A stretch of DNA of 64,000 nt, from the NCBI GenBank assembly GCA_015689645.1, contig WVSM01000004.1, positions 62,001-126,000 on the forward strand, written 5' to 3'. The notes beneath the pieces were generated by a model. It was given only the letters and a program-made list of their open reading frames with translations, searched no databases and had not been told where the DNA came from. Origin of the DNA: Rhodobacterales bacterium HKCCE4037. Its GTDB lineage: Bacteria > Pseudomonadota > Alphaproteobacteria > Rhodobacterales > Rhodobacteraceae. The position numbers and the translations under genes were made by a program. This document shows, in pieces, positions 59,677 through 63,882 of this stretch; position 1 is the first letter of the stretch, and each line of letters opens with the position of its first letter.

Positions 59677-59764
59677 CCCTTTCATCTTGCCAGAAAACCT
59701 CCGGGGGGAGTCCGCCAGGACGGGGGGGCAGCGCCCCCCGCCGCGCGGCGCAAGCCGCGCGGCC
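59677..59764 (+). repeat. full intergenic repeat copy, core plus GC-rich hairpins
   Basis: CCCTTTCATCTTGCCAGAAA at 59678-59697 followed by CCTCCGGGGGGAG, GTCCGCC and the perfect hairpin GGGGGGCAGCGCCCCCC, then CCGCGCGGC and GCCGCGCGG arms. It lies between two convergent genes, and its stems may stop transcription from both sides. Confidence 0.75.
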
Positions 59765-59818
59765 CGGTCGGGGTCACGCACAGGCCGGCAGGCCGAGCAT
59801 GGACCGAAATACCCCGTG

Positions 59819-61393
59819 TCAGCGGAACCAGAAATCCCAGCCGCGCTGGTAGGCCGCCACGAGCGGATGCCCCTGGATCGTGTTCACCGGCACCTCCCCG
59901 GCGGGCAACTGGTCCTCGCCGAAGGCCTGCGCCCCGCGCCAGACGTCGCCGTTCAGGAACCGCAGCCCCTCCGGCAAGTCCGGCACCCGCGCGTCATCGG
60001 GCACCCCCGGCCCGGCCATCACGAAACCCCAGTTCCCGAAACTCGGCAGGTAGACCTGGTAGGCCAGCGTCTCCATCCCCTGACCCGGCGCCATCGGGTT
60101 GCGGGTCGCGGCGAGCGTCGCCTCGGTGATCCAGAAGGCCTCGCTGGCGAAGGTCGGCGATCCCGCCTGCGTCACGAACAGCCCCACGCCCGACAGCCGC
60201 TCCATCAGCATGGAATAGAACTCGACCGAATAGAGCTTGGACAACGCGATGCTCTTGGGGTCCGGCAGATCGGCGATGATGATGTCGAAAACCTCGTCCC
60301 CGTGCCCTTCCGCGGCCCAGACCCACGCGTCCGCGTTCACGATCTCGACCCGCTCGTCCTGCAACGACCCGCCGTTCAACGCGACAAGGTCGGGGTTGGT
60401 CGCGAACAGCTCCGTCACTCGCGGGTCGAGGTCCACCAGGACCACCCGCTCGACGCCGTCGTGGCGCAGCACCTCGCGCACCGCCATCCCGTCGCCGCCG
60501 CCCAGGACCAGCACATTGCGCGCGTCCGGCACCAGTCCCATCGACGGATGCACCAGCATCTCGTGATAGCGATGCTCGTCGAGCGAATCGAACTGGATCG
60601 AATGGTCGAGGAACAGGCGATACCGCTCGTCGAAGCGCGTGATGATGATGCTCTGGTAGGGCGTGGTCTCGGAAAAGATCACCTCGTCCTGGAACAGCCG
60701 CGCATCGACGGCCGACACCATGCGTCCGCTCAACCCGAAGGCCGCGATGGCCGCCAACAGGAACCCGGCCCACGCCAGCCACAGCCCGCGCCCGATCCGG
60801 TCCCGGAACAGGTAGAGCGACAGGCCCGCCACCAGCAGGTTCAGGATGCCGAATGCGATGGAGGCCGCCATCAGCGGCAGGTTCGGCACGATCAGAAGCG
60901 GAAAGGCCAGCGAGGCCGCAAGCGCGCCGATGTAATCGGCGGTCAGCACGTTCTCGAACCGGAACTCCGCCGCGCCGATCTCCTTCATCACGCGGCTGAT
61001 CAGCGGGATCTCCATGCCCGACAGCACGCCGATGGCGATCAGCCCGCCGTAAAGCGGCAGGCCCACCGCGCCGTAGAAGGCATAGGTGAAGAACAGGAGC
61101 GGCCCCAGCGCGCCACCGATCACGCCCAGGGCCATCTGCGCCCGCACGAAGCCGGCCAAGGCGTCGCCCACGAAGCGCGACACCCAGGCGCCCATGCCCA
61201 TCGCGCTCAGGAACACCCCGATCACGAACGAGAATTGGCGGATCGAGTCGCCCAGAAGGTAGCTCGAAATCGTCGCCGCGATCAGCTCGTAGATCAGGCC
61301 CGCCACGGCCACCACGAAGGTGGCCGCCAAAAGCCAGGCGACCTTGGGCGTCAGCTCGCTCGGCGCGCCCGTCTCGGTTGTTTTGTCTGTCAA
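59819..61393 (-). CDS. membrane-embedded spermidine synthase-like aminopropyltransferase
   Basis: 524 residues. Residues about 18-225 hold seven or eight membrane segments; the cytoplasmic C-terminal half is a SpeE-like Rossmann domain: ITRFDERYRLFLDHSIQFDS, HEMLVHPSMGLVPDARNVLV, LGGGDGMAVREVLRH (decarboxylated SAM site) and IIADLPDPKSIALSKLYSVE (catalytic Asp region). Soluble SpeE lacks the membrane part. It is the last gene of the minus-strand module beginning at 63787, and lies 34 bases after the DUF350 gene. Enzyme activity is plausible; its substrate is unknown. Confidence 0.9.
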   Translation of the reverse strand: MTDKTTETGAPSELTPKVAWLLAATFVVAVAGLIYELIAATISSYLLGDSIRQFSFVIGVFLSAMGMGAWVSRFVGDALAGFVRAQMALGVIGGALGPLLFFTYAFYGAVGLPLYGGLIAIGVLSGMEIPLISRVMKEIGAAEFRFENVLTADYIGALAASLAFPLLIVPNLPLMAASIAFGILNLLVAGLSLYLFRDRIGRGLWLAWAGFLLAAIAAFGLSGRMVSAVDARLFQDEVIFSETTPYQSIIITRFDERYRLFLDHSIQFDSLDEHRYHEMLVHPSMGLVPDARNVLVLGGGDGMAVREVLRHDGVERVVLVDLDPRVTELFATNPDLVALNGGSLQDERVEIVNADAWVWAAEGHGDEVFDIIIADLPDPKSIALSKLYSVEFYSMLMERLSGVGLFVTQAGSPTFASEAFWITEATLAATRNPMAPGQGMETLAYQVYLPSFGNWGFVMAGPGVPDDARVPDLPEGLRFLNGDVWRGAQAFGEDQLPAGEVPVNTIQGHPLVAAYQRGWDFWFR

Positions 61394-61427
61394 TCGTGCC
61401 GCCCCGGCCCGGCCGGACGCCCCCGGA

Positions 61428-61646
61428 TCAGGAGAGGATGACCGCCCCGATGATGATCGCCATGGAGATGAAGACCGAGCCGATCAGGATCGCCAGCGAG
61501 GTATTCTGATCCTCTTCGATCTCCTTCACGATCGGGAAGGGCGACAGCACCTCGATCACCTTGTAGGCGATGTACATCAGGACCATCCCGATGATGCTGT
61601 AGACCAGCGTCGAGACCAGTTCGGCCAAGATAATTCCCTCAAACAT
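61428..61646 (-). CDS. DUF350 membrane protein, single-unit length
   Basis: 72 residues with two membrane segments (LVSTLVYSIIGMVLMYIAYK and ILIGSVFISMAIIIGAVIL) joined by an acidic loop (KEIEEDQNTS). DUF350/YjfL proteins usually have about 130 residues and two such units, so this is a half-size form that may dimerise. Its neighbours are a DUF4178 pair and an aminopropyltransferase, the genomic company in which DUF350 proteins are known to occur. Confidence 0.87.
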   Translation of the reverse strand: MFEGIILAELVSTLVYSIIGMVLMYIAYKVIEVLSPFPIVKEIEEDQNTSLAILIGSVFISMAIIIGAVILS

Positions 61647-61676
61647 GTGCGTAAGCTCCTATTCCAGAAGGGCTGT

Positions 61677-61859
61677 TTACTTGATCCGTCCGAAGGCCGC
61701 GAACCCGCCGCTGCCTCCGCCGGACGATCCGGTGCGGATGGATTGCGTGGACGCCGCCAGGTCGCGGCTTTCGCGACCGACGCCGTAATAGCTCATGTAG
61801 CTGGCGCCCATCAGCGCCATGACCGCGCCGCCGATGATGACGAGCCTGATCGGATTCAT
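61677..61859 (-). CDS. 60-residue membrane peptide with Gly/Ser-rich tail
   Basis: One N-terminal hydrophobic segment (LVIIGGAVMALMGASYMSYY) is followed by a short linker and a Gly/Ser-rich end (SSGGGSGGFAAFGRIK). Position between the DUF4178 and DUF350 genes, 15 and 30 bases from them, supports a true gene of the same operon. No family is recognised. Confidence 0.7.
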   Translation of the reverse strand: MNPIRLVIIGGAVMALMGASYMSYYGVGRESRDLAASTQSIRTGSSGGGSGGFAAFGRIK

Positions 61860-61874
61860 TGCGCTGCCTCCTCC

Positions 61875-63155
61875 TCAGTCATCGTGCCAGTCCGACCCGC
61901 TGAAGCGGCGGCTGTTGAACATCGCGCGGCGCGCGGCGACGTAAAGCCAGCCGAGGCCCGCCAGAACGGCAAGGACGAACATCCAGAACGCCGCCGGCTT
62001 GCCTTCGCTGACCCGCACCTGCAGCGTGAACGAATCCGCCGCGTTGCCGCCCTCGGCCCGTTCCAGCCGCAGCGTATGGGGGCCGGTGGTCTCCGGCCGG
62101 AACCGGAACGAGCCATTGCGCGAGCCTTCCGACCAGCTCTCGCCCCCCGACCGGCCCGAGTAATAGGAAATCGCCCGCTCCGCCGCGACCACCGGGTTGC
62201 CGTCCGGCCCCAGCACCTCGACCGCAAAGACCCCCCAGGCGTTCTGAAGGTTGCTCTCCAGCCTGACGCGCGACAGCTGGCTCGGATTGGTGACCTCGAA
62301 CGAATAGCTTTCGGGAAGTTCCGACAGCATCATCTGGGGCGTTTCCAGTACCGTTCGGCCCGGCATGAGCAGGAACACGAGCCCCAGCACCAGCGCTGCG
62401 ATCGCGGTCAGGCTGAGGACCCGCCTCAGAAGCCCTTCCTCCGCCATCGGCGTGTAGGGCTGCAGCGGATGCCGCTCGGCGGGCCCCAAAGCGCCCAGGC
62501 TGAAGCCCATGTCCCTCGCCACCGCGTCCCGGTCCAGAAGCCTGGTCAGCTCCACCTCGCGCTCGGTCGCCGATCTCGACAGCCCCAGCATCGCGTCCGG
62601 ACCCAGCAGGCTGACGGTCTGCGTCTTCTCGCCCAGCTTCGGCACCCAGTTGAATTCACCTTCCATGAACTCGATCTCGGCCACCGAGGTCTCGTAATAC
62701 TTGTAGGTCTCACCCTCGTAGGACCGGCGCGGCGGCGTCTCCGACTGCTCCACACTCGCCGGGCTCAGCCAGTGGCCCATGTTGAAGTCCCGCACCTTGC
62801 GGGTGAAGGTCACATGGCCGTTTTCCACGTTCAGCCACAGGTAGCCGTGGGTCGGCGAAAAGATCTGGTGCTCCACCCAGCGCCAGGTCTTCGCGCCGTA
62901 TTTCTCGACCATGCCCAGCGTACCGATCACGGTGAACTCCACGCCTTCGTAAGTCAGCGTCATGCCGATCGTGATCGGGCTTTTCGGGTGGTCCCGCTTC
63001 CCGATGCTGTCCAGCACCTTGTAATTGTCCTGCGTGTCCAGAACCGCGCCGCAATAGCCGCAGACATGGGTCTGAACCCGCCCGCCGCCCAGCACCGACA
63101 GCCCGGCCCCGCAGGAGGTGCAGTTGATCGAACTCAGGCCATGAGTCGCCGTCAT
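61875..63155 (-). CDS. DUF4178 protein with zinc ribbon and C-terminal membrane segments
   Basis: 426 residues. An N-terminal zinc-ribbon (INCTSCGAGLSV, HVCGYCGAVLD; CxxC pairs at about 12-15 and 32-35) is followed by a DUF4178 domain (GMTLTYEGVEFTVIGTLGMV, LWLNVENGHVTFTRKV). A membrane segment near 248-267 leads to a beta-rich domain (about 275-390) and a second membrane segment near 388-408. So the ribbon and DUF4178 are probably cytoplasmic and the middle domain periplasmic. It overlaps the upstream DUF4178 gene by four bases. Confidence 0.85.
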   Translation of the reverse strand: MTATHGLSSINCTSCGAGLSVLGGGRVQTHVCGYCGAVLDTQDNYKVLDSIGKRDHPKSPITIGMTLTYEGVEFTVIGTLGMVEKYGAKTWRWVEHQIFSPTHGYLWLNVENGHVTFTRKVRDFNMGHWLSPASVEQSETPPRRSYEGETYKYYETSVAEIEFMEGEFNWVPKLGEKTQTVSLLGPDAMLGLSRSATEREVELTRLLDRDAVARDMGFSLGALGPAERHPLQPYTPMAEEGLLRRVLSLTAIAALVLGLVFLLMPGRTVLETPQMMLSELPESYSFEVTNPSQLSRVRLESNLQNAWGVFAVEVLGPDGNPVVAAERAISYYSGRSGGESWSEGSRNGSFRFRPETTGPHTLRLERAEGGNAADSFTLQVRVSEGKPAAFWMFVLAVLAGLGWLYVAARRAMFNSRRFSGSDWHDD

Positions 63156-63787
63156 GCCACCCGGCTCCCGTCAAGCCGCTCGACCTTCAGCGTGAAGGGA
63201 TCCAGCCATTCGCCATCGCTCCACGCATGGCCACCCTCCCAGAATTCGCCCGACAGGATCTGCCCCGCCGGGCCGGAGGCATTCACGAAGTAATGCGCGT
63301 CATCGACCTGGATCAGCTCCGGGAATTGCCCGCGCACGGCGATGCACTTGGCAGTATCCCCCTCGGTCACCGTGTAGTCGCGCCCGCCATGGTGGACCTT
63401 CTCGCCCACCGCTGGCGGATCGCTCCGGCTTGGAGCGGACCGCCCTCCCAACGGGTATTGCACGGCCACGTCGCCCTCGTCGATGGACAGCCACGCCCCC
63501 TCGCCGGCGCTGTTCTCGATCCAGAACTCGTCCCACGTCCCGCGCCCGTAATCATACCGCGCGTGCCCCACAACGAGGCATTTCTTTCCGTGGATGGTGA
63601 CGCTGTCGTTCACGTCCAGCAACATCGGGTAGTCGTGCATCTCCCCGTTGTTGCCCACCGGATTGACCGCCGCGCCCTCGCGAAACAGCGTCGTGCCGCA
63701 AGACGGGCAATCGAACATCCGCGTCGATTTGCGAAGGTTGTCAAAGCCGTAACCGCAATTCGGACAGGTGACGTGAGGATCGGACAT
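63152..63787 (-). CDS. DUF4178 zinc-ribbon protein, first gene of the module
   Basis: 211 residues, no membrane segment. It starts with CPNCGYGF and DCPSCGTTLF (zinc ribbon, about 9-33), then one DUF4178-like domain (SVTIHGKKCLVVGHARYDYG, EFWIENSAGEGAWLSIDEGD) and a second similar half (GEKVHHGGRDYTVTEGDTAK, FVNASGPAGQILSGEFW). GGA-type ribosome binding sequence precedes the ATG. The 3' end overlaps the next gene. Earlier genes of this operon could lie beyond the window edge. Confidence 0.85.
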   Translation of the reverse strand: MSDPHVTCPNCGYGFDNLRKSTRMFDCPSCGTTLFREGAAVNPVGNNGEMHDYPMLLDVNDSVTIHGKKCLVVGHARYDYGRGTWDEFWIENSAGEGAWLSIDEGDVAVQYPLGGRSAPSRSDPPAVGEKVHHGGRDYTVTEGDTAKCIAVRGQFPELIQVDDAHYFVNASGPAGQILSGEFWEGGHAWSDGEWLDPFTLKVERLDGSRVA

Positions 63788-63840
63788 GAAATGCGAAATT
63801 CCGAAGGATAAGCTGTAATCCGCTCACCCTAGCCGCAGGG

Positions 63841-63864
63841 ACCCGCCCCCGTAAAGGGGCGGGT
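63841..63864. repeat. perfect 9-bp GC-rich hairpin
   Basis: ACCCGCCCC, CGTAAA, GGGGCGGGT. It lies about 55 bases upstream of the DUF4178 start. A terminator role is uncertain because no T run adjoins the stem on either strand. Confidence 0.6.
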
Positions 63865-63882
63865 GGCCTGCGTTTTCCCAGT

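Follow-up and report, generated by a model that had tools for sequence, protein, structure and literature searches.

We describe a recurring C-terminal lysine in loci that encode membrane-fused relatives of spermidine synthase, starting from a 64,000-nucleotide stretch of the genome of Rhodobacterales bacterium HKCCE4037 (contig WVSM01000004.1, positions 62,001 to 126,000), the whole of which is hereafter called the window. The window carries a minus-strand module of five genes encoding two DUF4178 proteins, a 60-residue membrane peptide, a half-size DUF350 protein and TM-SpeE, an enzyme in which a SpeE-like domain is fused to membrane helices. The new element is the lysine itself, which recurs at the very end of membrane-anchored, Gly/Ser/Arg-rich tails of varied host proteins. 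In the window, the tail belongs to the peptide (61677-61859, minus strand), which comprises one N-terminal membrane segment, the motif R-T-G-S, a Gly/Ser-rich tail and a final lysine encoded by AAG (61680-61682), directly followed by the stop codon TAA (61677-61679). The peptide has no match in Pfam and may be the key part of the module. We propose that TM-SpeE aminopropylates its C-terminal lysine with decarboxylated S-adenosylmethionine (dcSAM) as the donor, a reading that we place a little short of an even chance.

Iterated HMMER searches with the window peptide recovered homologues at 13 loci of close relatives and at three loci of Chloroflexi (L020, L021 and L023; the prefixes L, G and f denote loci, genomes and family groups), all of which end in lysine, as does a similar 68-residue open reading frame (ORF) at L022. 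Where the small peptide is missing, the tail is found either on a fused double-DUF4178 protein (L061, L062, L064, L065, L066, L067 and L071) or on a membrane protein or lipoprotein of 197-237 residues beside the enzyme (L024, L026, L049, L050 and L051). All 77 tails collected end in lysine, with the codon AAA in 52 and AAG in 25, followed by TAA in 40, TGA in 21 and TAG in 16. Among the other ORFs of at least 200 codons in the same loci, which are ORFs rather than checked genes, 36 of 642 (5.6%) end in lysine and 99 in arginine. A loose R-x-G/R-N-S motif lies within the last 45 residues of most tails (61/77), although not of all. A conserved RNA signal or ribosome site as the cause of the terminal lysine codon was rejected because both lysine codons and all three stop codons are used and because the next start in the window is 30 bases away.

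Given that some of the 77 tails were found by searching for lysine, the figure of 77/77 is not a free test of the terminal residue; the free tests are the second of two filters blind to the last residue and the same-strand filter count on new loci. The first blind filter, whose criteria were a membrane segment and a Gly/Ser-rich tail, returned 46 ORFs, 39 of them ending in lysine; by eye, six of the seven others lie outside the peptide slot, and the one inside it occurs at L066, where the DUF4178 protein carries the lysine tail. With the second blind filter, a lysine-ending ORF was found at 54 of 79 TM-SpeE loci compared to none of 20 soluble-SpeE loci (Fisher p 7e-9, a value that overstates the significance because the loci are related). 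Lysine ended 54 and arginine four of the 75 passing ORFs at TM-SpeE loci, compared to a lysine count of 0/6 at the controls, and all 54 are identical with the tail proteins collected for the respective loci. A rule that does ask for lysine, applied identically to both sets, was satisfied at 72/79 TM-SpeE loci and 1/20 controls, and the total reaches 73/79 once homology, slot and inspection for lysine ends are included.

The same-strand filter, which looks for a Gly/Ser-rich tail, was applied to loci chosen before any tails were examined. A search across the phylum covered 398 genomes, of which 44 exceeded the cut-off of NCBIfam NF002956; the test set consisted of 20 TM-SpeE loci from 19 previously unseen genomes, and the controls were 20 loci from rows below the cut-off that resemble soluble SpeE. 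A lysine-ending tail was detected at 11/20 new loci and 1/20 controls. Inspection raised the count for the new loci to 17/20, with the tail ending the gene that precedes DUF350 in L077, L081, L082, L085 and L086, and that of L080 found through a search for lysine ends; the loci without a tail are L074, at a contig edge, L087 and L088. The tailed rows of the phylum span 16 family groups (f1, f6, f36-f40, f43, f48, f66, f69-f71, f76, f83 and f84). This spread across one phylum, together with Chloroflexi and the variety of host proteins, makes the terminal lysine a concrete acceptor candidate.

The sets are defined as follows. The 79 loci exclude the stretches from the window's own genome (L001-L006 and L031), L052, which is the same place as L016, L040, where DUF4178 lies near a contig edge and no TM-SpeE was found, and L063, L065 and L066, in which the fetched stretch contains no TM-SpeE. 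The 77 tails are those of the 73 loci plus the window, L052, L065 and L066; L052 is also counted among the 46 ORFs and among the 81 sequences used for loop charges. Four of the 44 genomes (G254, G425, G449 and G624) were not fetched at the enzyme, and the stretches of G448 and G466 (L065 and L066) stop short of it.

The initial annotation took the five genes to form a module, and their conservation bears this out. A scan with the enzyme yielded 24 loci, the nearest named ones being from Roseicyclus, and the order of all five genes is unchanged at each of the 13 loci of close relatives (L007-L019), at enzyme identities of 56 to 89%, so that the arrangement is not due to chance; the locus titled Maritalea (L016) comes from a genome (G551) that is placed in the window's family. 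Of the 11 loci farther away, L020 and L021 (Chloroflexi) combine the enzyme with a 57-residue peptide and a pair of DUF4178 genes, and DUF350 was not found there; L023, also from Chloroflexi, is cut but includes the peptide. Two DUF4178 genes, the 68-residue peptide, DUF350, the enzyme and SpeD are present in L022, a different tail protein adjoins the enzyme in L024-L026, and in L027, which combines the enzyme with DUF350 and a DUF4178 pair, an ORF of 75 residues with a lysine tail overlaps the beginning of the second DUF4178 ORF. None of the partners of the enzyme was seen in L028-L030, the first of which is cut just before the enzyme.

The aminopropyl donor chemistry of TM-SpeE (59819-61393, minus strand; 524 residues, TTG start), as judged from its retained motifs, appears well supported. 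The protein matches NF002956 (PRK03612, polyamine aminopropyltransferase) with 608.6 bits against a cut-off of 472, over positions 10-520 of 522, and Pfam Spermine_synth with 107.7 bits. The acid of the GGGDG motif (D301) is invariant in 71/71 TM-SpeE sequences, as are D375, D378 and P379 of the D..DP motif, and Q247, Y276, H277, GGGDG, D323, D355, D375 and D378-P379 are common, at 90% or more, to TM-SpeE and 20 soluble SpeE proteins. The AlphaFold2 model (71 sequences, mean predicted local distance difference test score (pLDDT) 93.9) contains seven long membrane helices within residues 16-220 and a SpeE-like domain at 237-524; thus, where the initial annotation had allowed for seven or eight membrane segments, seven holds and eight does not. 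The catalytic domain aligns with soluble SpeE structures at Z scores up to 34.4 (1uir_A, root-mean-square deviation (rmsd) 2.2, 276 aligned residues). Fold and donor motifs are shared with soluble SpeE, whereas the membrane domain, F452, P377, a longer C-terminus and the partner genes set TM-SpeE apart. Seven residues (T252, F268, P377, S412, F452, W455 and G456) are fixed in 77/77 TM-SpeE sequences and differ in most soluble SpeE, which have T in place of P377 in 19/20 cases and Y in place of F452 in 20/20. This tyrosine is presumably part of the acceptor site. In the membrane domain, E128 and D153 are invariant and E36 is present in at least 90% of the sequences.

These data bear on the possibility that TM-SpeE is simply the membrane-tethered spermidine synthase of the organism and that the lysine tail has no role beyond binding or positioning something. 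Its catalytic motifs are those of SpeE, it is the only spermidine-synthase domain in the window genome, and that genome encodes SpeD and has no match to nspC by profile search; nspC as an alternative route to spermidine in this genome was accordingly rejected, and the absence of a match keeps the housekeeping role in play. However, TM-SpeE scores 124.7 bits with the SpeE equivalog model TIGR00417, well below the cut-off of 249.55, and the tyrosine of soluble SpeE is replaced by phenylalanine in every TM-SpeE sequence. Moreover, the 18 DUF4178-containing genomes in a sample of 248 from the window's family include four with a coexisting soluble SpeE scoring above 180 bits (G025, G190, G218 and G239) and three others with long nspC matches, one above the 409-bit cut-off (G056) and two just below it (G112, 400.7 bits; G211, 394.8 bits). 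In work by Li et al. (2019, Biochem J 476:2579), a related fusion was reportedly unable to complement a speE mutant, with no spermidine present. On balance, we consider a purely housekeeping function unlikely.

The same sample supports the link between the module and SAM decarboxylase that had been suggested at the outset. SpeD was detected in 60 genomes, namely in 18/18 of those with DUF4178 compared to 42/230 of the others (Fisher p 9e-13, which overstates the significance because the genomes are related). TM-SpeE adjoins DUF4178 in 17 of these 18 genomes, the exception being G158, whose contig stops too early. The distance between SpeD and the module enzyme is at most about 1.5 kb in six (G056, G072, G112, G186, G208 and G211). 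In the window genome, the one SpeD gene is located on contig 1, unlinked to the module, rather than beside it. A second operon type occurs in the same family, with SpeD about 2 to 3 kb upstream of TM-SpeE and without DUF4178 (L049, L050, L051 and G089:C100); G221 carries both types.

The charge distribution of TM-SpeE provides an indication of its orientation. The mean number of lysines plus arginines per loop is, in order, 0.59, 1.99, 0.40, 2.94, 0.40 and 2.98, and in 81/81 sequences the combined count is higher for the loops between helices 2-3, 4-5 and 6-7 than for the remaining three. Because the number of helices is odd, the N-terminus and the SpeE domain are expected on opposite sides of the membrane, and under the positive-inside rule the N-terminus would be inside and the SpeE domain outside. 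We infer that the SpeE domain, like most tails, is outside the cytoplasm. Of 28 long tail proteins, 12 have a lipobox-like site. Fused DUF4178 proteins, for example that of L062, consist of a ribbon domain of cytosolic type, one helix and then the tail, and the tail protein of L078 has a strongly basic loop ahead of its last helix. The flank charges of the small peptides also tend, weakly, towards an outside tail. Amine-oxidase-like ORFs are present in nine loci, and Pfam Amino_oxidase scores above its cut-off in two of the three scanned (L062 and L068). By eye, those of L054, L068, L070 and L071 have an N-terminus of the twin-arginine (Tat) type, and that of L062 is less canonical; such neighbours fit amine chemistry on the outer face, although this is not strong evidence. 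Flavoproteins of this kind beside TM-SpeE are located at L054:2439-4070, L062:9949-11706, L068:1662-3341, L070:1874-3481 and L071:9836-11527.

The proposal of lysine aminopropylation can be put as a simple model. SpeD, encoded elsewhere in the genome, would make dcSAM in the cytosol, and TM-SpeE, in which the dcSAM-binding and catalytic motifs are kept and the acceptor site appears changed, would move the aminopropyl group to the terminal lysine of the peptide, at its side-chain amine. Putrescine, the customary acceptor, and the lysine side chain offer an identical aminobutyl group. In other operons, the modified lysine would sit on a lipoprotein or on the DUF4178 protein. The modified tail would terminate in a cation resembling spermidine. 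In a more specific version, which is possible but doubtful, the seven-helix enzyme makes N6-(3-aminopropyl)lysine on the C-terminal lysine of a membrane-anchored peptide or lipoprotein. Its SpeE domain would then face outward from the inner membrane, on the side where most tails seem to be, and dcSAM would be carried across, for which the seven-helix domain or DUF350 might provide the route. The DUF4178 proteins, with the zinc ribbon inside and the jelly-roll domain outside, might couple the modification to the inside. What has been computed is the gene order, the co-occurrence with SpeD, the donor motifs, the seven helices and the recurrence of the terminal lysine; from these we infer the acceptor, the sidedness, the crossing of dcSAM and the role of the module. 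Elsewhere, dcSAM is used for polyamines; the model, if correct, would add a protein modification derived from dcSAM and linked to envelope stress operons. In the outer-face version, the envelope would gain a covalently bound spermidine-like cation.

In addition to the relatedness of the loci, several observations weigh against this model. Six of the 79 TM-SpeE loci have no tail (L028, L029, L030, L074, L087 and L088); among them, the enzymes of L028-L030 are 31-34% identical to that of the window, L028 is truncated 192 bases ahead of the enzyme and L074 lies 83 bases from a contig end. The second blind filter fails at 25/79 loci, 19 of which were counted through homology, slot or a search for lysine ends, and the controls are not clean, given that L094 passes the same-strand filter and L092 the rule that asks for lysine. 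The sidedness of the small peptides is weakly defined, with the N-terminal flank more positive in 30 of 49, the C-terminal flank in 11 and ties in 8; the two helices of the L061 protein would place its tail inside, and the amine-oxidase-like ORFs of L055, L064, L067 and L069 have no clear Tat signal, although their starts are perhaps over-extended. To our knowledge, dcSAM outside the cytosol is unprecedented. No modification was observed here or in the consulted passages of related papers, and the literature matches listed contained nothing on aminopropylated lysine in their titles or the beginnings of their abstracts. The window enzyme could also make spermidine.

Much of the module belongs to a known kind of operon. 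Ravi et al. 2024 (PMC11237479) describe an operon of PspA, CesT/Tir, a 7TM-spermine synthase, DUF350, a lipoprotein and DUF4178, which bears out the association of DUF350, DUF4178, SpeE-like and PspA genes mentioned in the initial annotation. The enzyme architecture, DUF350 and DUF4178 recur in the window, whereas PspA was not found in the window genome (no PF04012 matches; the control for this search gave matches in 9/14), and the module differs in its two DUF4178 genes, its half-size DUF350 and the 60-residue peptide, which replaces the lipoprotein. No CesT/Tir-like chaperone was found among the five genes, to which that search was limited. The window module is thus a variant of this operon kind without PspA. 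L072 resembles the PspA-CesT/Tir type itself (PspA, 142.6 bits), and the protein in its lipoprotein slot carries a lysine tail and a lipobox-like site.

The main text of the same article does not use the word lysine; it proposes polyamine monitoring or, with reference to Li et al. 2019, the aminopropylation of other substrates (PMC11237479). Along these lines, TM-SpeE might aminopropylate a different membrane molecule, be it a lipid, a small metabolite or a free peptide, and the tail might serve as a scaffold or as a charge sensor to which the product or anionic lipids bind. The donor evidence is equally compatible with such a function, and the Gly/Ser/Arg-rich tails look flexible, but a charge role would tolerate arginine, and the second blind filter found it far less often than lysine, even though arginine outnumbers lysine 99 to 36 among the background ORF ends. 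Because lysine is so rarely replaced by arginine, the amine would seem to matter rather than charge alone, and we regard this alternative as rather unlikely. A further option is that the terminal lysine is the substrate of an ATP-grasp ligase, a GNAT acetyltransferase or a rhomboid or carboxypeptidase, and TM-SpeE supplies an aminopropylated small molecule to be joined to it. A rhomboid-GNAT fusion is encoded between SpeD and the tail protein in L049, and ATP-grasp ligases occur in sister operons (PMC11237479); however, no such gene lies between the five of the module, in the window or in the 13 loci of close relatives, which makes this option highly improbable.

The closest precedent for the mechanism is an enzyme of similar architecture, the fungal NHMT, which resides in the endoplasmic reticulum and methylates the N-terminal histidine of secreted proteins (PMC10349129, which also gives the meaning of the acidic residue in GxG(D/E)G). 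Like TM-SpeE, it has seven predicted membrane helices followed by a spermidine-synthase-like domain; unlike TM-SpeE, which keeps the acid throughout, it has isoleucine in its place and transfers methyl (PMC10349129).

Fusions closer to TM-SpeE have also been considered before. Li et al. are said to have discussed SpeD together with membrane-fused spermidine synthase and DUF350, to have proposed the aminopropylation of a substrate other than putrescine and to have left open the acceptor, so that SpeD-linked membrane-fused SpeE-like enzymes reportedly stood without a substrate. The candidate acceptor put forward here, the terminal lysine, sets the present proposal apart from that work.

The two DUF4178 proteins both retain the zinc-ribbon cysteines. 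The longer one, D4178L (61875-63155, minus strand; 426 residues, Pfam DUF4178 72.4 bits against a cut-off of 25), has C12, C15, C32 and C35 invariant in an alignment of 31 sequences, and its AlphaFold2 model (pLDDT 90.4) shows a helix at 240-263, a jelly-roll beta domain at 267-386 and a helix at 390-420. VIA-align matched the beta domain to the C-terminal domain of a subtilase (3afg_A; Z 10.3, rmsd 2.5, 97 aligned residues), a collagen-binding domain (Z 9.8) and a GOLD domain (Z 9.6). In a whole-length Foldseek search, the query TM-scores were below 0.2 among the 50 matches listed; because VIA-align covered mainly the beta domain (265-387), the lack of a listed match for the DUF4178 fold is not evidence of novelty. 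The shorter protein, D4178S (63152-63787, minus strand; 211 residues), also combines a zinc ribbon with DUF4178 (80.3 bits) and is kept in 13/13 loci of close relatives. The DUF350 protein (61428-61646, minus strand; 72 residues) matches positions 3-65 of the 133-position Pfam profile with 44.4 bits. This single-unit form had been called unfamiliar but is not rare, and proteins of 69-74 residues are also encoded in L054, L055, L062 and L064-L067. ORF coordinates and Pfam confirm the originally described order and content of the five minus-strand genes over 59819-63787, with intergenic spacings of -4, 15, 30 and 34 bases.

To the right of 64000, where the initial annotation suggested looking for speD, pspA, band-7 or ATP-grasp genes, none was seen in 11 kb of ORFs, which were read by eye with no family search. 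Accordingly, a PspA or band-7 partner for the window module was rejected, with no PspA match in the genome and neither seen on that side. By eye, the ORFs there (L002:7984-11966) resemble a class III aminotransferase, an M24-type peptidase and a desuccinylase-like protein, a set that we take to resemble ectoine-degradation genes. Between the end of the aminotransferase gene and the start of the module, a G+C-rich, terminator-like inverted repeat (cccgcccc...ggggcggg, 63830-63880) was noted by eye. Long plus-strand antisense ORFs opposite the module (59687-61441 and 61320-63293; 584 and 657 codons) are probably an effect of composition.

Other loci have neighbours of their own. The fusion in L049 (5983-7296) matches Pfam Rhomboid and Acetyltransf_1, with a weak rhombosortase match, and genes of similar size occupy the same slot in operons without DUF4178 (L050:2613-3926, L051:5696-6982 and, on the opposite strand, L024:2351-3751), L049 being the one that was scanned for domains. 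Band-7/SPFH proteins with a C-terminal SHOCT domain adjoin the double-DUF4178 genes in L061 (3643-4671) and L067 (8214-9311).

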